From assembly GCF_001625365.1 (NCBI RefSeq), contig NZ_LJJF01000001.1:2984501-3048500 (forward strand): a stretch of DNA of 64,000 bases. The letters run 5' to 3'. Source of the stretch: Streptomyces sp. MJM8645. Its GTDB lineage: Bacteria > Actinomycetota > Actinomycetes > Streptomycetales > Streptomycetaceae. This document shows positions 17,543 to 26,141 of this stretch, piece by piece. Below the pieces are notes generated by a model. That model made no database searches, had not been told where the DNA came from, and saw only the letters and a program-made list of their open reading frames with translations. Position 1 is the stretch's first letter; each line of letters starts with the position of its first letter. The position numbers and the translations under genes are program-made.

Positions 17543-19078
17543 TCAGGCGGCGATCCCGGTGTCCTCCACCGACGCCCCGGCCACCGGCTCCCCCGCCGCC
17601 GTCCCGGCCTTCCGGTCGCGCATCACCAGCGTGGCCACCACCGCCGCCGCCAGCACCCCGATCGCGCTGATCGTGAAGGTCGTCGACATCGCCGAGGTGA
17701 AGGCCTCCCGGACGGTCCGGACGAGCCCGGCGTCCCCGTTGGCCAGTGCCAGCGCCCCGCCGACGGAGTGCTTCGCCTCCTCCGGCATCCCGGCGGGCAT
17801 CTCGGCGGCGAAACCGCTCGACAGCAGCGAGCCCAGGATGGCGATGCCGAGCGCGGTACCGGCCTGCTGGATGGTGTCGTTCAGTGCCGAGCCGACGCCC
17901 GCCTGCTCCGGCGGGATGGTGCCCATCAGCGCGCCCACCGCCGCCGGCATCGCCAGGCCCGCGCCGAGGCCGAGCAGCCCGAGGGCGACCGCCGGGACGG
18001 TGAAGCCGGTGCCGGCGGTGACGGTGGTCAGCAGGGCGAAGGAGGCGGCCATGACGAGCATCCCGGTGAGGATGAGCAGGCGGTTGCCGATCGTGGCGGC
18101 GAACTTGGCGCCGACCCCGTTGCCGATCAGGGCGGCGATGGCCAGCGGCACGAACGCGAGGCCCGCCTTGACCGGCGAGTAGCCGAGCACGAACTGCAGG
18201 TACTGGGTGAGCACGAGCAGCAGGCCGCCGTTGCCGATCTGCACCAGGGTCAGCGACAGCGAGCCCCCGCTGAAGTTGCGGTGTTTGAAGAGCGCCAGCG
18301 GAACCATGGGCGCGGAGGTGATGTTCTCCCACGCCACGAACCCGCCGAGCGCGAGCACCGCGATGGCCAGGGTGACCAGGGACTGGCCGCCGAAGGCGCC
18401 GTACTGAGGGATCTCGATGATCCACCAGACCAGGGCGGTCATGCCGGCCGCGGAGAGCACCGCGCCGAGCGGGTCGGGCTTCTGCCACGGGCCCTTGGAC
18501 TCCGGCATCAGCAGCAGGCCGGCCAGGATCGCCAGGGCGACGACCGGGACGTTGATGAAGAAGATCGAGTGCCAGGAGAAGTGGTTGATCAGCACGCCGC
18601 CGAGGACCGGGCTGCCGACCAGCCCCAGCATCGCCACCGAGCTCCAGGCGGCCATCGCCTTGTTGCGCTCGTCCTCGTCGAAGACGGTGATGAGGATCGA
18701 CAGCGTCGAGGGCATGATCAGCGATCCGCCGACGCCCATGGCGACCCGGGCCGCGATCACCTCGCCGGGGTTGGTGCAGAAGGTGGCCGCCAGGGAGGCC
18801 GCCCCGAAGAGCAGCAGCCCGATGATCATGATCTTCCGGCGGCCGAAGCGGTCCCCGAGGCTGCCGGCGGTGAGCAGCAGCCCGGCGAAGACCAGGACGT
18901 AGGAGTCGAGGATCCACTGGGTGTCCTGGGCGCTGGCGCCGAGGTCCGCCGTCATCGAGGGCACGGCGACCGTGAGCGCCATGCTGTCGACCACCAGGAC
19001 GAGCGAGCTCAGGCACAGCACGATCAGGATCCACCAGCGGTGCGGATTGCGGCCCTCGGTCGCGTTGAGCGCTGTCAT
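17543..19078 (-). CDS. MFS multidrug exporter, DHA2 (EmrB/QacA) family
   Basis: Proton-driven exporter of 511 aa with 14 predicted membrane segments, typical of DHA2 pumps. MFS motif A is GSLGDRFGRRKIMI (about 70-84), and the drug-exporter motif C region appears as GLVGSPVLGG. The ATG at 19078 has GGAGGGG upstream; the longer open frame to 20149 is an artefact overlapping the divergent regulator. It is divergent from a TetR gene with many operator-like repeats between them, so it is probably repressed by that TetR and induced by a substrate. Substrate unknown. Confidence 0.93.
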   Translation of the reverse strand: MTALNATEGRNPHRWWILIVLCLSSLVLVVDSMALTVAVPSMTADLGASAQDTQWILDSYVLVFAGLLLTAGSLGDRFGRRKIMIIGLLLFGAASLAATFCTNPGEVIAARVAMGVGGSLIMPSTLSILITVFDEDERNKAMAAWSSVAMLGLVGSPVLGGVLINHFSWHSIFFINVPVVALAILAGLLLMPESKGPWQKPDPLGAVLSAAGMTALVWWIIEIPQYGAFGGQSLVTLAIAVLALGGFVAWENITSAPMVPLALFKHRNFSGGSLSLTLVQIGNGGLLLVLTQYLQFVLGYSPVKAGLAFVPLAIAALIGNGVGAKFAATIGNRLLILTGMLVMAASFALLTTVTAGTGFTVPAVALGLLGLGAGLAMPAAVGALMGTIPPEQAGVGSALNDTIQQAGTALGIAILGSLLSSGFAAEMPAGMPEEAKHSVGGALALANGDAGLVRTVREAFTSAMSTTFTISAIGVLAAAVVATLVMRDRKAGTAAGEPVAGASVEDTGIAA

Positions 19079-19095
19079 CAGCCACCCCTCCATTC

Positions 19096-19210
19096 TGCGC
19101 ACACCGTTCCCCCGGTGCGCACCCCGTTCCTTCGTTGCGCACACTGTACGCATGGCGGAACAGCGTGCGCAATATCCGAATCCTGTACGCTCAATGCGAA
19201 CGGTGTACGC
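19096..19210. promoter_or_regulatory. Operator-like repeats between MFS exporter and TetR
   Basis: Divergent promoter region with several related half-sites: TGCGCACACCGTT (19096) and its near inverse AACGGTGTACGCA (from 19199), a pseudo-palindrome TGCGCACACTGTACGCA at 19136-19152, and three TGTACGC copies. These are the likely binding sites of the adjacent TetR protein. Confidence 0.6.
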
Positions 19211-19966: not shown

Positions 19967-20206
19967 CCCGCCGGCCGGACAACCCGCGGGCACTCCACTC
20001 GGCGCGCAGCCACCGCCCGCCCACCACGCCGGGCCGACCGGACCAAGCCGTCCAACTCCCCCGCAAAGGGACAGCGGTCGCGGCCCACGTACGGGCGCCC
20101 CCTCCCCGCCTGGCGAAATACCGGCGGTCGCGGGGCGGGGAGCGGGCACAATGGCCTAGTGATGGTGGGCCGTCCGGTGTCGGGGGGCCAGGGAATGGAG
20201 GCCCGG

Positions 20207-21658
20207 GTGAGCGATCTTCCGCGCAAGGCAGTGACCCGCACGGCACGGCTCGCCGCCCTGCCGCTGGGGATAGCCGGACGCGCCACACTCGGTCTGGGCA
20301 AGCGCATCGGCGGGCGCTCCGCCGAGGTGGTGACGGCCGAGCTCCAGCAGGCCACCGCCGACCAGCTGTTCAAAGTCCTGGGTGAACTCAAGGGCGGGGC
20401 CATGAAGTTCGGGCAGGTGCTGTCCGTCTTCGAGGCCGCGCTGCCCGAGGAGGTCGCCGGGCCGTACCGGGCCGCGCTCACCAAGCTGCAGGACGCCGCT
20501 CCCCCGATGCCCGCCGCCAAGGTGCACACCGCGCTCGCCCAGCGGCTCGGGGACGGCTGGCGCGAGCTGTTCCGGGAGTTCGACGACCGGCCGGCGGCGG
20601 CCGCCTCGATCGGGCAGGTGCACCGGGCCGTCTGGCACGACGGGCGCCGGGTCGCGGTCAAGGTGCAGTACCCGGGCGCGGGCGACGCGCTGCTCGCCGA
20701 CCTGACGCAACTGAGCCGGGTGGCCTGGCTGTTGGGCCCGCTGATCCCGGGGCTGGACATCAAGCCGCTGATCGCCGAGCTGCGCGAACGGGTGTCGGAG
20801 GAACTGGACTACGAGCTGGAGGCGCAGGCTCAGCGCCGCCACGCCGAGGAGTTCGCCGGCGACCCGGACATCGTGGTGCCCGGCGTGGTGGCGCAGGCCG
20901 ACCAGGTGCTGGTCACCGAGTGGATGGACGGCACCCCGCTGGCCGAGGTGATCACGGGCGGCACCCAGGAGGAGCGCGACCGTGCCGGGCAGTTGCTGGC
21001 CCGGTTCCTGTTCGCGGGCCCCTCCCGGACCGGCCTGCTGCACGCGGACCCGCACCCGGGCAACTTCCGGCTGCTGAAGGACGACGGCCCGGCGTCGGGC
21101 TGGCGGCTGGGGGTGCTGGACTTCGGCACGGTGGACCGGCTGCCGGGCGGGCTGCCCGCGCCGATCGGGGCGTCGCTGCGGATGGCCCTGGACGGCGACG
21201 CGGCGGGCGTGCTGAAGATGCTGCGCGAGGAGGGCTTCGTCAAGCCCTCGATCGAGCTGGACCCGGACGCGGTGCTGGACTACCTGCGGCCGATCATCGA
21301 GCCGGCCGCCGTGGACAGCTTCCACTTCACCCGGGCCTGGATGCGCGCGCAGGCGGCCCGGATCGCCGATCCGCGCTCGCCCGCCTACAACCTGGGCAAG
21401 CAACTGAACCTGCCGCCCGCGTACCTGCTGATCCATCGGGTGACGCTGAGCACCATCGGGGTGCTCTGCCAGTTGGGCGCCCAGGCGCCGTTCCGGGCGG
21501 AGATGCTGGCGTGGCTGCCCCAGTTCGCCGGTCGGGAACCGGCGGCGACGGCGAAGCCGGCCAACCCGGTGGGGACGGCGAGATCGGCGGGGACGGCGAA
21601 GCCGGCCGGTCGCAAGCCGGCAGGCGGCGAGCCCGCCAACCGCACCCGCAAGAGCTGA
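20207..21658 (+). CDS. ABC1/UbiB-type atypical kinase (AarF family)
   Basis: 483-residue ABC1-family kinase-like ATPase. All hallmark motifs are visible: KFGQ in AMKFGQVLS (extended K-x-GQ N-lobe motif), the Ala-rich nucleotide loop AAAASIGQVHRA, the VAVKVQYPG lysine, HADPHPGNF catalytic loop and LDFGT in place of DFG. UbiB homologues support isoprenoid quinone synthesis, but streptomycetes use menaquinone, so its target is uncertain. The GTG at 20207 has GGAGG 5 nt upstream; an earlier ATG at 20159 is less likely. The Ala/Lys/Gly-rich tail (about 445-483) is low complexity. A terminator follows. Confidence 0.92.
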   Translation: MSDLPRKAVTRTARLAALPLGIAGRATLGLGKRIGGRSAEVVTAELQQATADQLFKVLGELKGGAMKFGQVLSVFEAALPEEVAGPYRAALTKLQDAAPPMPAAKVHTALAQRLGDGWRELFREFDDRPAAAASIGQVHRAVWHDGRRVAVKVQYPGAGDALLADLTQLSRVAWLLGPLIPGLDIKPLIAELRERVSEELDYELEAQAQRRHAEEFAGDPDIVVPGVVAQADQVLVTEWMDGTPLAEVITGGTQEERDRAGQLLARFLFAGPSRTGLLHADPHPGNFRLLKDDGPASGWRLGVLDFGTVDRLPGGLPAPIGASLRMALDGDAAGVLKMLREEGFVKPSIELDPDAVLDYLRPIIEPAAVDSFHFTRAWMRAQAARIADPRSPAYNLGKQLNLPPAYLLIHRVTLSTIGVLCQLGAQAPFRAEMLAWLPQFAGREPAATAKPANPVGTARSAGTAKPAGRKPAGGEPANRTRKS

Positions 21659-21677
21659 CCACAACGCCCCCGACGAC

Positions 21678-21712
21678 CGCAGGCCGCTCCCCGTGACGGG
21701 GGGCGGCCTGCG
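21678..21712. terminator. Terminator after the ABC1 kinase gene
   Basis: 15-bp inverted repeat (21678-21692 with 21698-21712) with one G-U pair and a GTGAC loop. Confidence 0.85.
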
Positions 21713-21776
21713 GCACGACGGGGGTGGAACGCGGGGAGGCCTCGCGCCGCGACGAAAGCCGCGACGACAGCCGTGG

Positions 21777-22022
21777 CTACATCAGGGCGACGGCGATCGC
21801 CTTGCGGGCCCGCAGCGAGGCGCGCTCGGCCCGCTGCTTGAGCCGGCGGGCCCGGGCGACCCGGGTGACGAGGCGTTGGTGCTCGGCCTCGTGCAGGCGC
21901 TCTTGCATATGGGCCCGGGCCAGGGATTCGTGGAGGAGTTGCATTTCGAGGGTCCTGTTCTGGATCTGAAGTTCGGTGGTCTGCTCAGCGCGGACGGTCG
22001 GATCGATGGCGGCGGCGGTCAT
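21777..22022 (-). CDS. Small charged helical protein downstream of wblC
   Basis: 81-residue protein, mostly one long amphipathic helix rich in Glu, Arg, Gln and Leu (LQIQNRTLEMQLLHESLARA then HMQERLHEAEHQRLVTRV), suggesting a coiled coil, ending in a basic hydrophobic segment. The ATG at 22022 has only a weak AGGA upstream. It follows wblC on the same strand, 150 nt downstream, so it may share its transcript. I do not recognise a named family. Confidence 0.7.
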   Translation of the reverse strand: MTAAAIDPTVRAEQTTELQIQNRTLEMQLLHESLARAHMQERLHEAEHQRLVTRVARARRLKQRAERASLRARKAIAVALM

Positions 22023-22171
22023 GTGGTGGTCCTGCTCGTGGTGCGTGCTCGGGAAGGGGGCTGGCCGGGCTGCGTCGGCCTTGGCGGCGGCGATCCGGAC
22101 GGAACGGCGGAGGGAGCTGTCCAGCAGGGGCTGCTCTCCCCGGCGGACGGCCCTGGCGCCGTGGGCGGGGT

Positions 22172-22540
22172 TCACGCCATGACCTCGGTCTTGCGCGGAC
22201 GGCCACGCGGCCGCTTGCGGGCCACGACGACACCCTGGACGAAGAGCTCGCCACCCCAGACGCCCCACGGCTCGCGCCGCTCCAGCGCACCGGTCAGACA
22301 GGCGTCCTTGACCGGGCAGGTGCCGCAGAGGGACTTCGCGTACTCGACGTCGGCGGGCGTCTCGGCGAAGAAGACCTCGGGGTCGAAGGCGCGGCAGGGG
22401 ATGGGGAGCCCGAGCGCCTCGGCCTGCTCGATGGAGCTGATCTGCATGGAAAGAACCTCCGGGGGGTCGGCCTGGTCGGCCTTGGTGATCTGGCTTGTCG
22501 GCGGTACGGACGGGATGGGCGGCGTGATGACCGTGGACAC
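22172..22540 (-). CDS. wblC: WhiB7/WblC iron-sulfur transcription factor
   Basis: Redox- and antibiotic-responsive regulator that binds the primary sigma factor and activates intrinsic resistance genes. WhiB features are complete: cluster cysteines 49, 72, 75 and 81 (C...CGTC...C), the EPWGVWGGE sigma-contact turn (90-98), and the C-terminal AT-hook RGRPRK (112-117) diagnostic of WhiB7. Two starts are possible. The GTG at 22540 gives 122 aa with GAGGAAG upstream. The ATG at 22447 gives 91 aa with an excellent GGAGG 8 nt upstream. Upstream lie an attenuator-like leader and an A/T-patch promoter consistent with autoregulation. Confidence 0.95.
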   Translation of the reverse strand: MSTVITPPIPSVPPTSQITKADQADPPEVLSMQISSIEQAEALGLPIPCRAFDPEVFFAETPADVEYAKSLCGTCPVKDACLTGALERREPWGVWGGELFVQGVVVARKRPRGRPRKTEVMA

Positions 22541-22646
22541 TGTGGCGTCTTCCTCGTCTTTTCAGTGGTTCCGGCCCAGATGGCTGGTGGGTCTGGGCCG
22601 GAGGCCCCGGGGGGCCTGGGTGGTCTTGCGTACCGGACAAAACAGA

Positions 22647-22743
22647 AGGGCCGCGGATCCCGGTGTGACGGGTTCCGCGGCCCTGGAGGTGCCGACCTGA
22701 GGCTTACTCAGGTTCGTTCTCTCCAGGGTTCAGGCCCGCGGAA
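22647..22743 (-). promoter_or_regulatory. Candidate transcription attenuator in the wblC leader
   Basis: On the minus strand, 22684-22669 pairs with 22662-22647 (15 of 16 bp) and is followed by TCTGTTTTG, an intrinsic terminator before wblC. The same left arm can instead pair upstream. TTCCGCGG (22743-22736) and CCTGGAG (22727-22721) match CTCCAGG and CCGCGGAA at 22688-22673. This antiterminator would take up most of the terminator arm. A 7-bp hairpin (22713-22695) lies inside it and holds the TGA of an upstream reading frame. The design fits ribosome-dependent attenuation. Confidence 0.7.
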
Positions 22744-23172
22744 GGCCCGCATCCGGATGGCCGTGGCGCCCGCAAAGGCGGCCATGGCCTGGTTAATCTG
22801 CTGCTCGTTCTGCTTCTGGGCGTTTCCGGCACCGACGACCTGCGCATAGTCGCCATGCATGGCGGCTGCTACGACTGCCTTCGGTGCCTGGGTCGGTCGC
22901 TCATCACGCAGGGAGCGCGACGTGCCGAACGACGCCCAGTCGCCGGACAGACCGGCCTCGACGGAGGTGCCTTCGACGTTCCTGCCGCCCGCGGCGCAGA
23001 CATCAGTGTGTCCAAGGCCACTGACAGCGGGGACGACGGAGACACCGGTGGTGTCGAGACCCAGACCGGTTCCACCGAGCTCGGCGAGCGCCCGCAGACG
23101 GGCGGCACGCAGGGAGGCAGCAACAACGGTCTGGCCAGTCATTTTGGTGATCATGATGTTTCCCACTGTCAT
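22708..23172 (-). CDS. Uncertain ORF within the wblC leader region
   Basis: A 154-codon frame opening with MTVGNIMITKMTGQTVVAA, preceded by GAGAGG. Its stop lies between the antiterminator strands of the wblC attenuator. Codon third positions are, by eye, less G/C-rich than in neighbouring genes, and I recognise no family. It may be a real small protein or simply leader RNA. In-frame internal ATGs would allow much shorter regulatory peptides with the same C-terminus (for example a 14-codon frame ending PEPWRERT). Treat as tentative. Confidence 0.35.
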   Translation of the reverse strand: MTVGNIMITKMTGQTVVAASLRAARLRALAELGGTGLGLDTTGVSVVPAVSGLGHTDVCAAGGRNVEGTSVEAGLSGDWASFGTSRSLRDERPTQAPKAVVAAAMHGDYAQVVGAGNAQKQNEQQINQAMAAFAGATAIRMRAFRGPEPWRERT

Positions 23173-23310
23173 CGCCTCCTCTCGGCGTCTCGCGGAGCCA
23201 GGTCGCCCCGGCTCCGAATGTTCGGATGTCTGTCTCGGTGAAGCTGTTGGGTGCAGGGGATTCGGCACAGGTGTCACCCCGTGCGATCTCGTCCCCTTGA
23301 CCGCTCCGGC

Positions 23311-23349
23311 AGGCTATTGCGCTCCCGGTATGCCGCGCAAACTATTTTT
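23311..23349 (-). promoter_or_regulatory. WhiB7-type promoter upstream of the wblC leader
   Basis: On the minus strand an A/T patch (GAAAAATAG, ending at 23341) directly precedes a -35 TTGCGC (23340-23335), an 18-nt spacer and a -10 TAGCCT (23316-23311). WhiB7-activated promoters have exactly this layout, an A/T-rich triplet next to the -35 that is read by the AT-hook. It would start a leader of about 0.8 kb reaching wblC. Confidence 0.5.
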
Positions 23350-23415
23350 CACGGCGGGTTCGAATGTCCCCCGAGCGGCCCCCGGGAGACTCCCCTGGAC
23401 CGCGCCCGGACCGGC

Positions 23416-25674
23416 TCACGCCGGATCGACCGGCTCGCCGTCCTCGACGCCGTCCGGATCCTCCTCGGGCTCCTCCCCCGCACACAACGAGAGCACGGCC
23501 GCCCCGTACTTGTCCAGCTTCATCGCGCCGACCCCGGAGATCACGGCCAGCTCCTGGCGGCTGGCCGGCACGTCCTCGGCGATGGCCATGAGCGTGGCGT
23601 CGGTGAACACCACGTAGGCCGGCGCCCCCTGCTTCTTGGCCTGCCGGGCCCGCCACTCGCGCAGCCGCTCGTACAGCGCCTCGTCCATGGTGGACGGGCA
23701 GCTCTCGCAGCGGCGCAGCTTGCGCTCGACCGCCTCGGTGAGCACCTTCTCGCAGACCCGGCACTTGACCGGGCCGCGGACCCGCCGTCCGGCGGAGCGC
23801 TCGCCGGGCTCCACGCCCCCGCGCCCGCCCCGCCCGCCGGTGCGTGCGCCGGGGGCGCTGGAGCCGGGACGCAGCCCGTCCAGGAAGCGGCTGGGCTTGC
23901 GGCTGGCCCGGCCGCCCGGGGAGCGGCTGAGCGCCCAGGAGAGGGAGAGGTGCCTGCGGGCGCGGGTGACGCCGACGTAGAGGAGTCGGCGCTCCTCCTC
24001 GATCTGCTCGTCGGTCTTGGCGTAGATGATCGGCAGGGTGCCCTCGGTGAGGCCGACGAGGAAGACGGCGTCCCATTCGAGGCCCTTGGCGGCGTGCAGC
24101 GAGGCGAGGGTGACGCCTTCGACGGCGGGGGCGTGCTGGGCGGCGGCGCGGGCGTCGAGTTCGGCGACGTAGGCGGCGAGGTCGGCGCTGTGGCCGGCGG
24201 CGGTGCGGGTGCGCTCGAACTCCTCGGCGAGCCGGACGAGGGCGGCGAGGGACTCCCAGCGGTCGCGGACGGCGCCGGAGCCGGCGGGCGGTTCGGCGGT
24301 GAAGCCGCGGGCGGCGAGGACGGCGCGGACCTGGCCGGCGAGGTCGGGGGCGTCGGCGGTGAGCGGGTCGGCGCCGGCCCGGGCAGCGCCGCGCAGCAGG
24401 ACGCCGGCGTCGCGGACCTCGGGGCGTTCGAAGAACCGCTCGGCGCCCTTGAGCTGGTAGGGGACGCCGAGGTCGGCGAGGGCCTGCTCGTAGACCTCGG
24501 ACTGGCCGTTGGTGCGGAACAGGACGGCGACCTCGCTGGCGCGCACGCCGGTGGCGAGCAGGTCCTTGATCCGGCGGGCGGTGGTCTCGGCCTCGGTGGG
24601 CTCGTCCTCGTACTCGGTGTAGACGGGTTCGGGGCCGGCCTCGCGCTGGGAGACGAGTTCGAGGCGGTGGCGGGCGGCCTCGCCGCGGGCCTGGCTGAGC
24701 AGTCCGTTGGCGAGGTGGACGACCTGCGGGGTGGAGCGGTAGTCGCGGACCAGCTTGACGACCGTGGCCTCGGGGTGGTGGGTGCGGAAGTTGAGCAGGT
24801 AGTCGGGGGTGGCGCCGGTGAAGGAGTAGATGGTCTGGCTGGCGTCGCCGACGACGCAGAGGCTGGCGCCGCCGCCGGGGCCGGTCCACTGGTCGAGCAG
24901 CCGCTGCTGGAGCGGCGAGACGTCCTGGTACTCGTCGACGGTGAAGTGCCGGTACTGGGAGCGGACCTGGTCCGCGATGTCGGGGCGGTCCTCCAGGATG
25001 GCGGCGGTGAGCAGCAGGACGTCCTCGAAGTCGATGACGCCGCGGCGGCTCTTGGTCTCCTCGTAGACGCGGTAGACCTGGGCGGTCTCGGCCGGGTCGC
25101 GGGGGGCTTCGCGGCCGGACTTCTGGACGGCGGCGGGGTAGTCGTCGGGGCCGAGCTGGGTGACCTTGGCCCATTCGATCTCGGCGGTGAGGTCGCGCAG
25201 TTCGGTGCGCTGGACGCGCAGGCCGCAGCGGCCGGCGGATTCGGCGACGAGCTGGACCTTGCGTTCGAGCAGCTGGGGCACGGGGCCGCCGACGGCGCGC
25301 GGCCAGAAGTACTGGAGCTGGCGCAGGGCGGCGGCGTGGAAGGTGCGGGCCTGGACGCCGTCGGCGCCGAGTTGGCGCAGTCGGCCGCGCATCTCGCCGG
25401 CGGCGCGGGCGGTGAAGGTGACGGCGAGGACCTGCTGGGGCTGGTACACGCCGCTGCGCACGCCGTAGGCGATCCGGTGGGTGATGGCGCGGGTCTTGCC
25501 GGTGCCGGCGCCGGCGAGGACGCAGACGGGCCCGTGCAGGGCGGTGGCGACGGCGCGCTGTTCGGGGTCGAGCCCGGCGAGCACGGCGTCGGGGCCCGTG
25601 GCGGCGGTGGGGTCGGCCCAGAGGGAGCCGTGGGGGCCGTCGGACGGGCTGCCGCTCAAGAGGTCTTCCTGCAT
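23416..25674 (-). CDS. uvrD2: UvrD2-type superfamily 1 DNA helicase with HRDC domain
   Basis: ATP-dependent 3'-5' DNA helicase of 752 aa. The UvrD/PcrA motor has Walker A GAGTGKT (55-61), FTVDEYQDVSP (motif II), the GDASQTIYSF motif III and VGVTRARRHL (motif VI). The C-terminus has a tetracysteine linker (CRVCEK then CESC) and an HRDC domain (about 650-740), the domain order of mycobacterial UvrD2. I chose the ATG at 25674, with GAGAGG/GGAAAG upstream; an ATG at 25683 is an alternative. It is divergent from mycoredoxin, with a DnaA box in the shared promoter region. Confidence 0.93.
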   Translation of the reverse strand: MQEDLLSGSPSDGPHGSLWADPTAATGPDAVLAGLDPEQRAVATALHGPVCVLAGAGTGKTRAITHRIAYGVRSGVYQPQQVLAVTFTARAAGEMRGRLRQLGADGVQARTFHAAALRQLQYFWPRAVGGPVPQLLERKVQLVAESAGRCGLRVQRTELRDLTAEIEWAKVTQLGPDDYPAAVQKSGREAPRDPAETAQVYRVYEETKSRRGVIDFEDVLLLTAAILEDRPDIADQVRSQYRHFTVDEYQDVSPLQQRLLDQWTGPGGGASLCVVGDASQTIYSFTGATPDYLLNFRTHHPEATVVKLVRDYRSTPQVVHLANGLLSQARGEAARHRLELVSQREAGPEPVYTEYEDEPTEAETTARRIKDLLATGVRASEVAVLFRTNGQSEVYEQALADLGVPYQLKGAERFFERPEVRDAGVLLRGAARAGADPLTADAPDLAGQVRAVLAARGFTAEPPAGSGAVRDRWESLAALVRLAEEFERTRTAAGHSADLAAYVAELDARAAAQHAPAVEGVTLASLHAAKGLEWDAVFLVGLTEGTLPIIYAKTDEQIEEERRLLYVGVTRARRHLSLSWALSRSPGGRASRKPSRFLDGLRPGSSAPGARTGGRGGRGGVEPGERSAGRRVRGPVKCRVCEKVLTEAVERKLRRCESCPSTMDEALYERLREWRARQAKKQGAPAYVVFTDATLMAIAEDVPASRQELAVISGVGAMKLDKYGAAVLSLCAGEEPEEDPDGVEDGEPVDPA

Positions 25675-25715
25675 GCTTTCCATCCTCTCAGCCCGCTGGG
25701 ACAACGGGGGCGGGG

Positions 25716-25724
25716 TTGTCCACA
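25716..25724. promoter_or_regulatory. Single DnaA box upstream of uvrD2
   Basis: TTGTCCACA, the preferred streptomycete DnaA box, 42 nt upstream of the uvrD2 start. A single 9-mer may occur by chance. Confidence 0.4.
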
Positions 25725-25813
25725 GGCACGGTGTGATCGCAGGATGATCGCTGCGCACCGGGGCGCGCGGGGCCGTTCGGGCGCCGTCGTGGTGCGACGG
25801 AGCGTGGCCGCGC

Positions 25814-25839
25814 GGAATGACCGTCGCGCGGTGGGCGTT
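25814..25839 (+). promoter_or_regulatory. SigR-type (thiol-oxidative stress) promoter of mycoredoxin
   Basis: GGAAT (25814-25818), an 18-nt spacer and GTT (25837-25839) match the SigR consensus. The -10 ends 44 nt before the mycoredoxin ATG. Confidence 0.7.
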
Positions 25840-25883
25840 CCTGCCCTGAGACCGTACGCCCTCTTCCTGAAGGAGCCTCCTCG

Positions 25884-26141
25884 ATGTCCGGCAGCGTGAC
25901 GATGTACAGCACGACCTGGTGCGGGTACTGCAACCGACTCAAGAGCCAGATGGACCGGGAGGGGATCGGCTACACGGAGGTCAACATCGAGGAGGACCCG
26001 GCGTCGGCGTCGTTCGTCGAGTCGGTCAACGGCGGCAACCAGACCGTGCCGACGGTGCTGGTGACGCCGAACGCCGGCGGCGAGCGGGTCGTGATGACCA
26101 ACCCGAGCCTGCTGCAGGTGAAGAAGGCCCTCGGGGTCTGA
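25884..26141 (+). CDS. mrx1: Mycoredoxin (glutaredoxin-like, mycothiol-dependent)
   Basis: 85-residue thioredoxin-fold oxidoreductase that reduces mycothiol-mixed disulfides in the cytosol. Active-site WCGYC has Cys13 and Cys16; the cis-Pro is in TVPTVLV (about 56), all typical for mycoredoxin-1. GGAG precedes the ATG. A SigR-type promoter upstream fits control by thiol-oxidative stress. It is divergent from uvrD2 and converges on a GntR gene with a terminator between. Confidence 0.95.
   Translation: MSGSVTMYSTTWCGYCNRLKSQMDREGIGYTEVNIEEDPASASFVESVNGGNQTVPTVLVTPNAGGERVVMTNPSLLQVKKALGV

Follow-up and report, generated by a model that had tools for sequence, protein, structure and literature searches.

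On the minus strand of the window, the whole 64,000-nucleotide stretch of DNA analysed here, the protein encoded at 22172-22540 contains a Whib domain (Pfam PF02467, E 1e-15) and represents the sole close wblC (whiB7) match in its own 9.2-Mb genome (E 1.8e-79, the next of the seven matches being at 2.1e-9). The leader described below adjoins this orthologue directly upstream. Among the matches listed, the closest wblC proteins are those of Streptomyces sp. NRRL S-350 (98%) and Kitasatospora xanthocidica (97%), and, judged by sequence, the host genome is Kitasatospora-like. Matches to whiB7/wblC at E ≤ 1e-10 occur in 212 of 246 genomes of the class. The gene order between 20159 and 26141 (ABC1-type kinase, wblC, UvrD/HRDC helicase, glutaredoxin) is also the one around mycobacterial whiB7. 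An MFS transporter gene, possibly encoding a drug exporter, lies nearby (17546-19192), and a small open frame downstream of wblC (21777-22022, ATG at 22022, MTAAAIDPTVRAEQTTELQIQNRTLEM...) looks coiled-coil-like by eye; the longer frame containing it gave no Pfam match at E ≤ 0.001. The features of the leader are collected in Table 1.

Table 1. The wblC gene of the window and the mapped or predicted elements of its leader
Feature	Position	Strand	Basis
Putative autoregulated promoter: WblC box AAAAAT (23349-23344), 3 nt, -35 TTGCGC (23340-23335), 18-nt spacer, -10 TAGCCT (23316-23311)	23311-23349	-	sequence pattern
uORF (leader ORF): SD AGGAGG (23180-23175), GTG 23166-23164, 152 codons, stop TGA 22710-22708	22708-23166	-	SD and start conservation
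Hairpin inside uORF: GGCACCGA (22888-22881) / TCGGTGCC (22835-22828), variable inner stem	22828-22888	-	paired changes
Antiterminator left arm, outer part TTCCGCGG (uORF codons Phe-Arg-Gly)	22736-22743	-	sequence, A1 pairs, swap test
Antiterminator left arm, inner part CCCTGGAG (uORF codons Pro-Trp-Arg)	22721-22728	-	sequence, A1 pairs, swap test
7-bp hairpin with uORF stop codon, antiterminator apex	22695-22713	-	sequence and covariation
Switch strand CTCCAGGGCCGCGGAA: antiterminator right arm; from 22684 also terminator left arm	22673-22688	-	conservation
Intrinsic terminator hairpin, 15/16 pairs	22647-22684	-	sequence, fold, conservation
U-rich tail TCTGTTTTG	22638-22646	-	sequence and alignment A1
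wblC (whiB7) coding sequence, GTG start, 122 aa	22172-22540	-	Pfam Whib and genome matches

Comparisons within Streptomycetaceae rest on 81 leaders, namely the window and the best 80 of at least 562 wblC candidates; their alignment, A1, holds 81 sequences, 77 of them distinct. The promoter pattern NAAAWY-N3-TTGCGN-N16-19-TANNNT is present in 74 of these 81 leaders (window plus best 80 of at least 562) and in none of 81 single shuffles. The WblC box is given as GAAAWY, 3 nt upstream of the -35 element, in the available part of PMC7157823, and that of the window fits save for its first base, which is A, not G. By sequence pattern alone, then, an autoregulated promoter with a WblC box would precede the leader.

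A Shine-Dalgarno (SD) sequence with an in-frame start was found in 80 of the 81 loci (window plus best 80 of at least 562; GTG in 70/80, ATG in 10/80), L073 being dropped from the uORF set because it has no SD-start by the rule applied. Across these 80 loci the uORF spans 90-163 codons (median 108). Internal uORF segments (alignment A3) range from 74 to 92 nt, yet their lengths are equal modulo 3 in 80/80 loci, which argues that the reading frame is kept. Conservation at codon positions 1, 2 and 3 of the uORF is 0.83, 0.82 and 0.82, compared with 0.94, 0.96 and 0.85 for wblC in the same genomes; third positions in the uORF are no freer than the first two. In the window, GC3 is 0.74 for the uORF versus 0.92 for wblC and 0.96 for the upstream helicase gene (0.92-0.96 for wblC and two neighbours). 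Several uORF codons are near-fixed in the same 80 loci (from the window plus best 80 of at least 562): CGA in 79/80, AAA in 78/80 and TAT in 76/80. In genomes so rich in GC, these codons would be expected to be unusual. The uORF may, besides being putatively translated, also act at the RNA level. In the window its end reads IRMRAFRGPEPWRERT.

Between the uORF and wblC, sequence and predicted fold indicate a Rho-independent terminator. An earlier note on this DNA, made from sequence alone, had placed a minus-strand hairpin of 15/16 bp about 100 nt before wblC, and this holds: the arms AGGGCCGCGGA (22684-22674) and TCCGCGGCCCT (22657-22647) pair, followed inward by an A·A mismatch and CCCG/CGGG, and 97 nt separate the tail from the wblC GTG at 22540. 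The predicted energy of 22637-22700 (64 nt) is -35.0 kcal/mol, with z -4.17, and none of 200 shuffles is equally stable. The left arm CAGGGCCGCGGAA is identical in 80/80 Streptomycetaceae wblC loci (best 80 of at least 562 candidates), and 99.5% of terminator cells in A1 are paired, with 0 cells showing two-sided change. A generic scan for terminators across 22000-23700 reported one other site and not the hairpin at 22684-22647, presumably because the A·A mismatch splits the stem under the rules of the scan; an Rfam scan of 20000-26000 gave 0 matches at E ≤ 1. A second hairpin, TCCGGCCCAGA...TCTGGGCCGGA (22570-22602), lies between the terminator and the wblC ribosome-binding site; its arms can form a stem by a loose pattern in 56/81 loci, with variants such as GGTCC/GGACC in L011 and L014.

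The terminator left side can pair instead with sequence further upstream, as the earlier note had also proposed. The partner of CTCCAGGGCCGCGGAA is TTCCGCGG(N7)CCCTGGAG at 22743-22721: TTCCGCGG (22743-22736) and CCCTGGAG (22728-22721) face CTCCAGGG (22688-22681) and CCGCGGAA (22680-22673), giving 8 + 8 pairs with a 7-nt bulge. This antiterminator overlaps both the end of the uORF and the terminator left arm. If one C/T wobble is permitted, the left side TTCCG[CT]GG-N7-CCCTGGAG is exact in 78 of the 81 leaders (window plus best 80 of at least 562; the deviants are L015, L067 and L084), and in A1 99.7% of antiterminator cells are paired, with 0 cells of two-sided change. Such near-invariance of terminator and antiterminator says little about pairing by itself, and covariation support for both therefore rests on more distant families.

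The two arms of the antiterminator are separated by the 7-bp hairpin that the earlier note had drawn around the stop of the upstream ORF, and it was recovered as such: ACCTGAG (22713-22707) pairs with CTCAGGT (22701-22695), with the TGA inside. In A1, 98.5% of its cells are paired and 25 show two-sided change, a count reached by 0/500 shuffles; by a cruder measure, 3 pairs have two-sided change, which 182/500 shuffles reach. On the alignment evidence, then, the stop hairpin does covary in Streptomycetaceae. Covariation across streptomycete leaders, proposed in the earlier note as a check, is borne out for this hairpin but not for the terminator and antiterminator; folding, proposed alongside it, gives z -5.10 for 22637-22750, with 0/200 shuffles as stable. 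A long-range pairing of uORF GGTGCC with GGCACC after the stop hairpin, picked out by eye, was set aside: leaders with GGCGCC, L030 among them, would lose it yet keep the local pair.

Outside the family, we used 60 whiB7 leaders of the class, chosen among the better-scoring of the 212 matching genomes, weaker whiB7 homologues being left outside this set. By raw count, 59 of the 60 have a terminator-like hairpin ahead of the gene, with paired variants of the arms such as GGCCACGG/CCGTGGCC in L156 and L161. The distant alignment, A2, misaligns the variable middle of the leader, so pairs were not counted there and a swap test was used instead, in which the own antiterminator arms of 59 leaders from 20 families, window included, were compared with arms swapped between families. 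Two of 61 leaders had been dropped for lacking the arm pattern, L165 with and L176 without a terminator hairpin. Own arms pair at -22.6 kcal/mol versus -19.9 kcal/mol for swapped arms. By sequence, Wilcoxon p values are 4e-8 and 7e-6, and 40/59 leaders beat both swap means; by family, which is the safer level because related sequences are not independent, 15/20 families beat swapped arms (p 0.005) and 5/20 fail to do so. A composition-shuffle test of the antiterminator in the distant leaders was weak, with many z values between 0 and -1 and some positive. The swap test is preferred because it keeps real arms, and the weak shuffle result stands beside it.

The position of the uORF stop is also kept. 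An open frame of at least 60 codons ends in the region in 58/59 leaders, the distance from stop to terminator arm has a median of 26 nt (interquartile range 23-28, 59 leaders), and the stop falls within a local stem in 42/59. When the same stop rule was applied to five shifted regions, 7-29 of 59 leaders had such frames, and the interquartile ranges were 23-50 nt wide. A covariance model, R1, finds one strong full-length match in the host genome, at wblC (the other six have E 0.002-6), and at least one match at E ≤ 0.01, counted anywhere in the genome, in 119/119 genomes of the order. One genome (G341) has a second full-length match, which spans the 3′ end of another reading frame, presumably that of an inorganic pyrophosphatase, and was judged unrelated.

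A further hairpin lies inside the uORF. In A3, which covers 80 of the 81 loci (L060 was left out by a motif rule), its outer helix is paired in 96.2% of cells, with 14 cells of two-sided change, a count matched by 0/500 shuffles; slid controls are 15-49% paired. One of these, at -3, reaches 49% pairing with 21 two-sided cells, and the two-sided count alone is therefore indecisive. Against composition shuffles, the A3 segments have a mean z of -2.6 (71/80 below -1). Own arms also outperform swapped ones when sequences are taken as independent despite their relatedness. RNAalifold keeps part of the helix at a weak energy of -6 kcal/mol. The cutting point of the A3 segments was a GGTGCCGG-like motif that includes part of the right arm, so this choice favours the right arm but not the left. 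These data make it likely that the hairpin is an RNA element of the leader. Pausing of RNA polymerase or pacing of the ribosome as its role are guesses. It is possible, though doubtful, that this conserved hairpin, which lies some 85 nt before the antiterminator, and the retained CGA, AAA and TAT codons together pace ribosome against polymerase at the RNA level. If so, the switch would respond to slight slowing of translation from any cause and could cover a broad range of drugs without an arrest peptide; such a pacing hairpin would be relevant to how a single leader can respond to many unrelated drugs. The portions of the whiB7/wblC leader literature surveyed, in which the hairpin was not itself a query, contain no mention of it that we found, and no novelty is claimed.

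Folding of successive transcript prefixes provides an order of events. The antiterminator is the minimum-energy fold for 3′ ends from about 22673 to 22655, that is, before the terminator right arm is complete; the terminator starts to replace it at 22652, and replacement is complete at 22646. At full length without a ribosome, the terminator (-64.8 kcal/mol) has an advantage of 5.6 kcal/mol over the forced antiterminator (-59.2 kcal/mol). Antitermination must therefore be kinetic and co-transcriptional, with the antiterminator forming first. Ribosome footprints were accordingly modelled on prefixes ending at 22667, 22658 and 22655 instead of at full length, where they did not discriminate: even without a ribosome the terminator is the best fold there, and it forms with or without a footprint at the stop. 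In the prefixes, all 16 antiterminator pairs form when the footprint is absent or at least 20 codons upstream. With the footprint on the Phe codon, one inner pair is lost along with the 8 outer pairs; with it on the Trp codon, none of the 16 is left. A stall that induces should hence precede the last codons. At the stop (22728-22696), the footprint costs the 8 inner pairs and keeps the 8 outer ones, so that in this simple model a terminating ribosome alone blocks partially: it would weaken the antiterminator but not abolish it.

These observations are best explained by a transcription attenuator of wblC/whiB7, to which we assign a probability of about 0.94. RNA polymerase would start at the WblC-type promoter near 23311 and transcribe a leader of about 765 nt containing the 152-codon uORF. 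Ribosomes reaching the stop at 22710 would sit over CCCTGGAG and disrupt the stop hairpin; formation of the antiterminator would be incomplete, the terminator would fold and transcription would end near 22640. Were translation blocked or slow upstream, the antiterminator would fold first and hold the terminator left arm, allowing readthrough into wblC, the product of which would feed back on its own promoter. The ribosome-controlled attenuation suggested in the earlier note is supported: it fits the structure, the place of the uORF stop and the observed conservation and covariation. Sequence, folds, conservation, covariation and geometry come directly from this analysis; translation of the uORF, termination, antibiotic-dependent readthrough and autoregulation we infer from published work on relatives. 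In that work, as far as the available texts go, uORF translation of whiB7/wblC leads to the terminator, and disturbed translation (antibiotics, amino-acid depletion) to the antiterminator (PMC11550727, PMC10727445 and PMC13393426, citing Lee, Lee & Roe 2022, Mol Microbiol 117:179-192). The part of PMC12121999 that we could consult describes the whiB7 uORF as sensing multiple antibiotic classes and antibiotic-induced ribosome stalling within it as untested.

Three other accounts of the leader deserve weighing. The hairpin could be a plain terminator that insulates wblC from readthrough of the UvrD-like helicase gene, the antiterminator match being a by-product of the CCGCGG palindrome. The self-complementary CCGCGG core does make partial pairing easy, and the terminator is thermodynamically favoured over the antiterminator at full length; however, the inner helix CCCTGGAG/CTCCAGGG lies outside the palindrome and tracks across families (CCTCGAG/CTCGAGG in L155 and L174), the uORF stop is kept at a narrow distance, and a WblC-type promoter sits downstream of the helicase gene, all of which leave this account very improbable. 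A specific uORF peptide, for example the end MWAFRGxEPWSDPA, could alternatively stall the drug-bound ribosome as in erm leaders, in keeping with the high conservation of the last uORF codons in Streptomycetaceae. Yet this conserved end lies on the antiterminator left arm, a footprint there removes 8-16 of the 16 pairs, and the sequence of the uORF end varies between families. Such drug-dependent arrest is also hard to square with the multiple antibiotic classes that the uORF is said to sense in the consulted part of PMC12121999, and we regard it as quite improbable.

The leader might instead sense one amino acid and not translation in general. For mycobacterial whiB7, the title of Poulton et al. 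2024 reportedly points to alanine as the candidate. The uORFs average 17% Ala in 80 loci (from the window plus best 80 of at least 562), with conserved Ala positions near the internal hairpin, and amino-acid starvation alters whiB7/wblC expression via the uORF, according to the part of PMC11550727 available. On the other hand, the window has no run of a single codon just before the antiterminator, Ala ranges from 7% to 30% in distant leaders with a start found, and GC-rich hairpin codons would yield Ala anyway. We consider sensing of a single amino acid unlikely; amino-acid sensing and general attenuation by translation are also not mutually exclusive.

The switch is very probably real here, but its mechanism has already been published for the whiB7/wblC attenuator, of which it is an orthologue. 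The gene it would turn on encodes the master regulator by which actinomycetes are intrinsically resistant to many ribosome-targeting drugs; the present analysis adds an exact map from a Kitasatospora-like genome and tests the pairing by comparison.

Lee, Lee and Roe are said to have worked, in their 2022 study, in S. coelicolor. As far as that system is described in the sources available, the downstream gene, uORF, Rho-independent terminator and autoregulated promoter are alike, as is the formation of the antiterminator from overlapping uORF and terminator sequences (Lee, Lee & Roe 2022); here, by comparison, we describe a uORF of 152 codons with a likely internal hairpin. The mycobacterial whiB7 leader, as presented in the accessible part of Dinan et al. 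2014 (PMC4128351), likewise combines a uORF with SD, a stem-loop with T-rich tail after the uORF and attenuated transcription, but starts about 350 nt upstream of whiB7, whereas about 765 nt separate the predicted promoter from wblC here. The M. tuberculosis ilvB1 leader and trp-type attenuators share the logic proposed here, by which a ribosome at the stop would mask the antiterminator and a stall upstream would free it; in ilvB1, however, the uORF is short, with regulatory LVVI codons, in contrast to the long uORF without such a run found here (PMC13236596, in part). Finally, the S. coelicolor ABCF leaders are5sc and tiaA, which belong to Streptomyces resistance genes, likewise have a uORF and predicted terminator/antiterminator folds, yet their uORFs are very short and stalled at the start codon, and their ribosome-binding sites lie within the antiterminator, unlike the arrangement here (PMC12421871, likewise in part).
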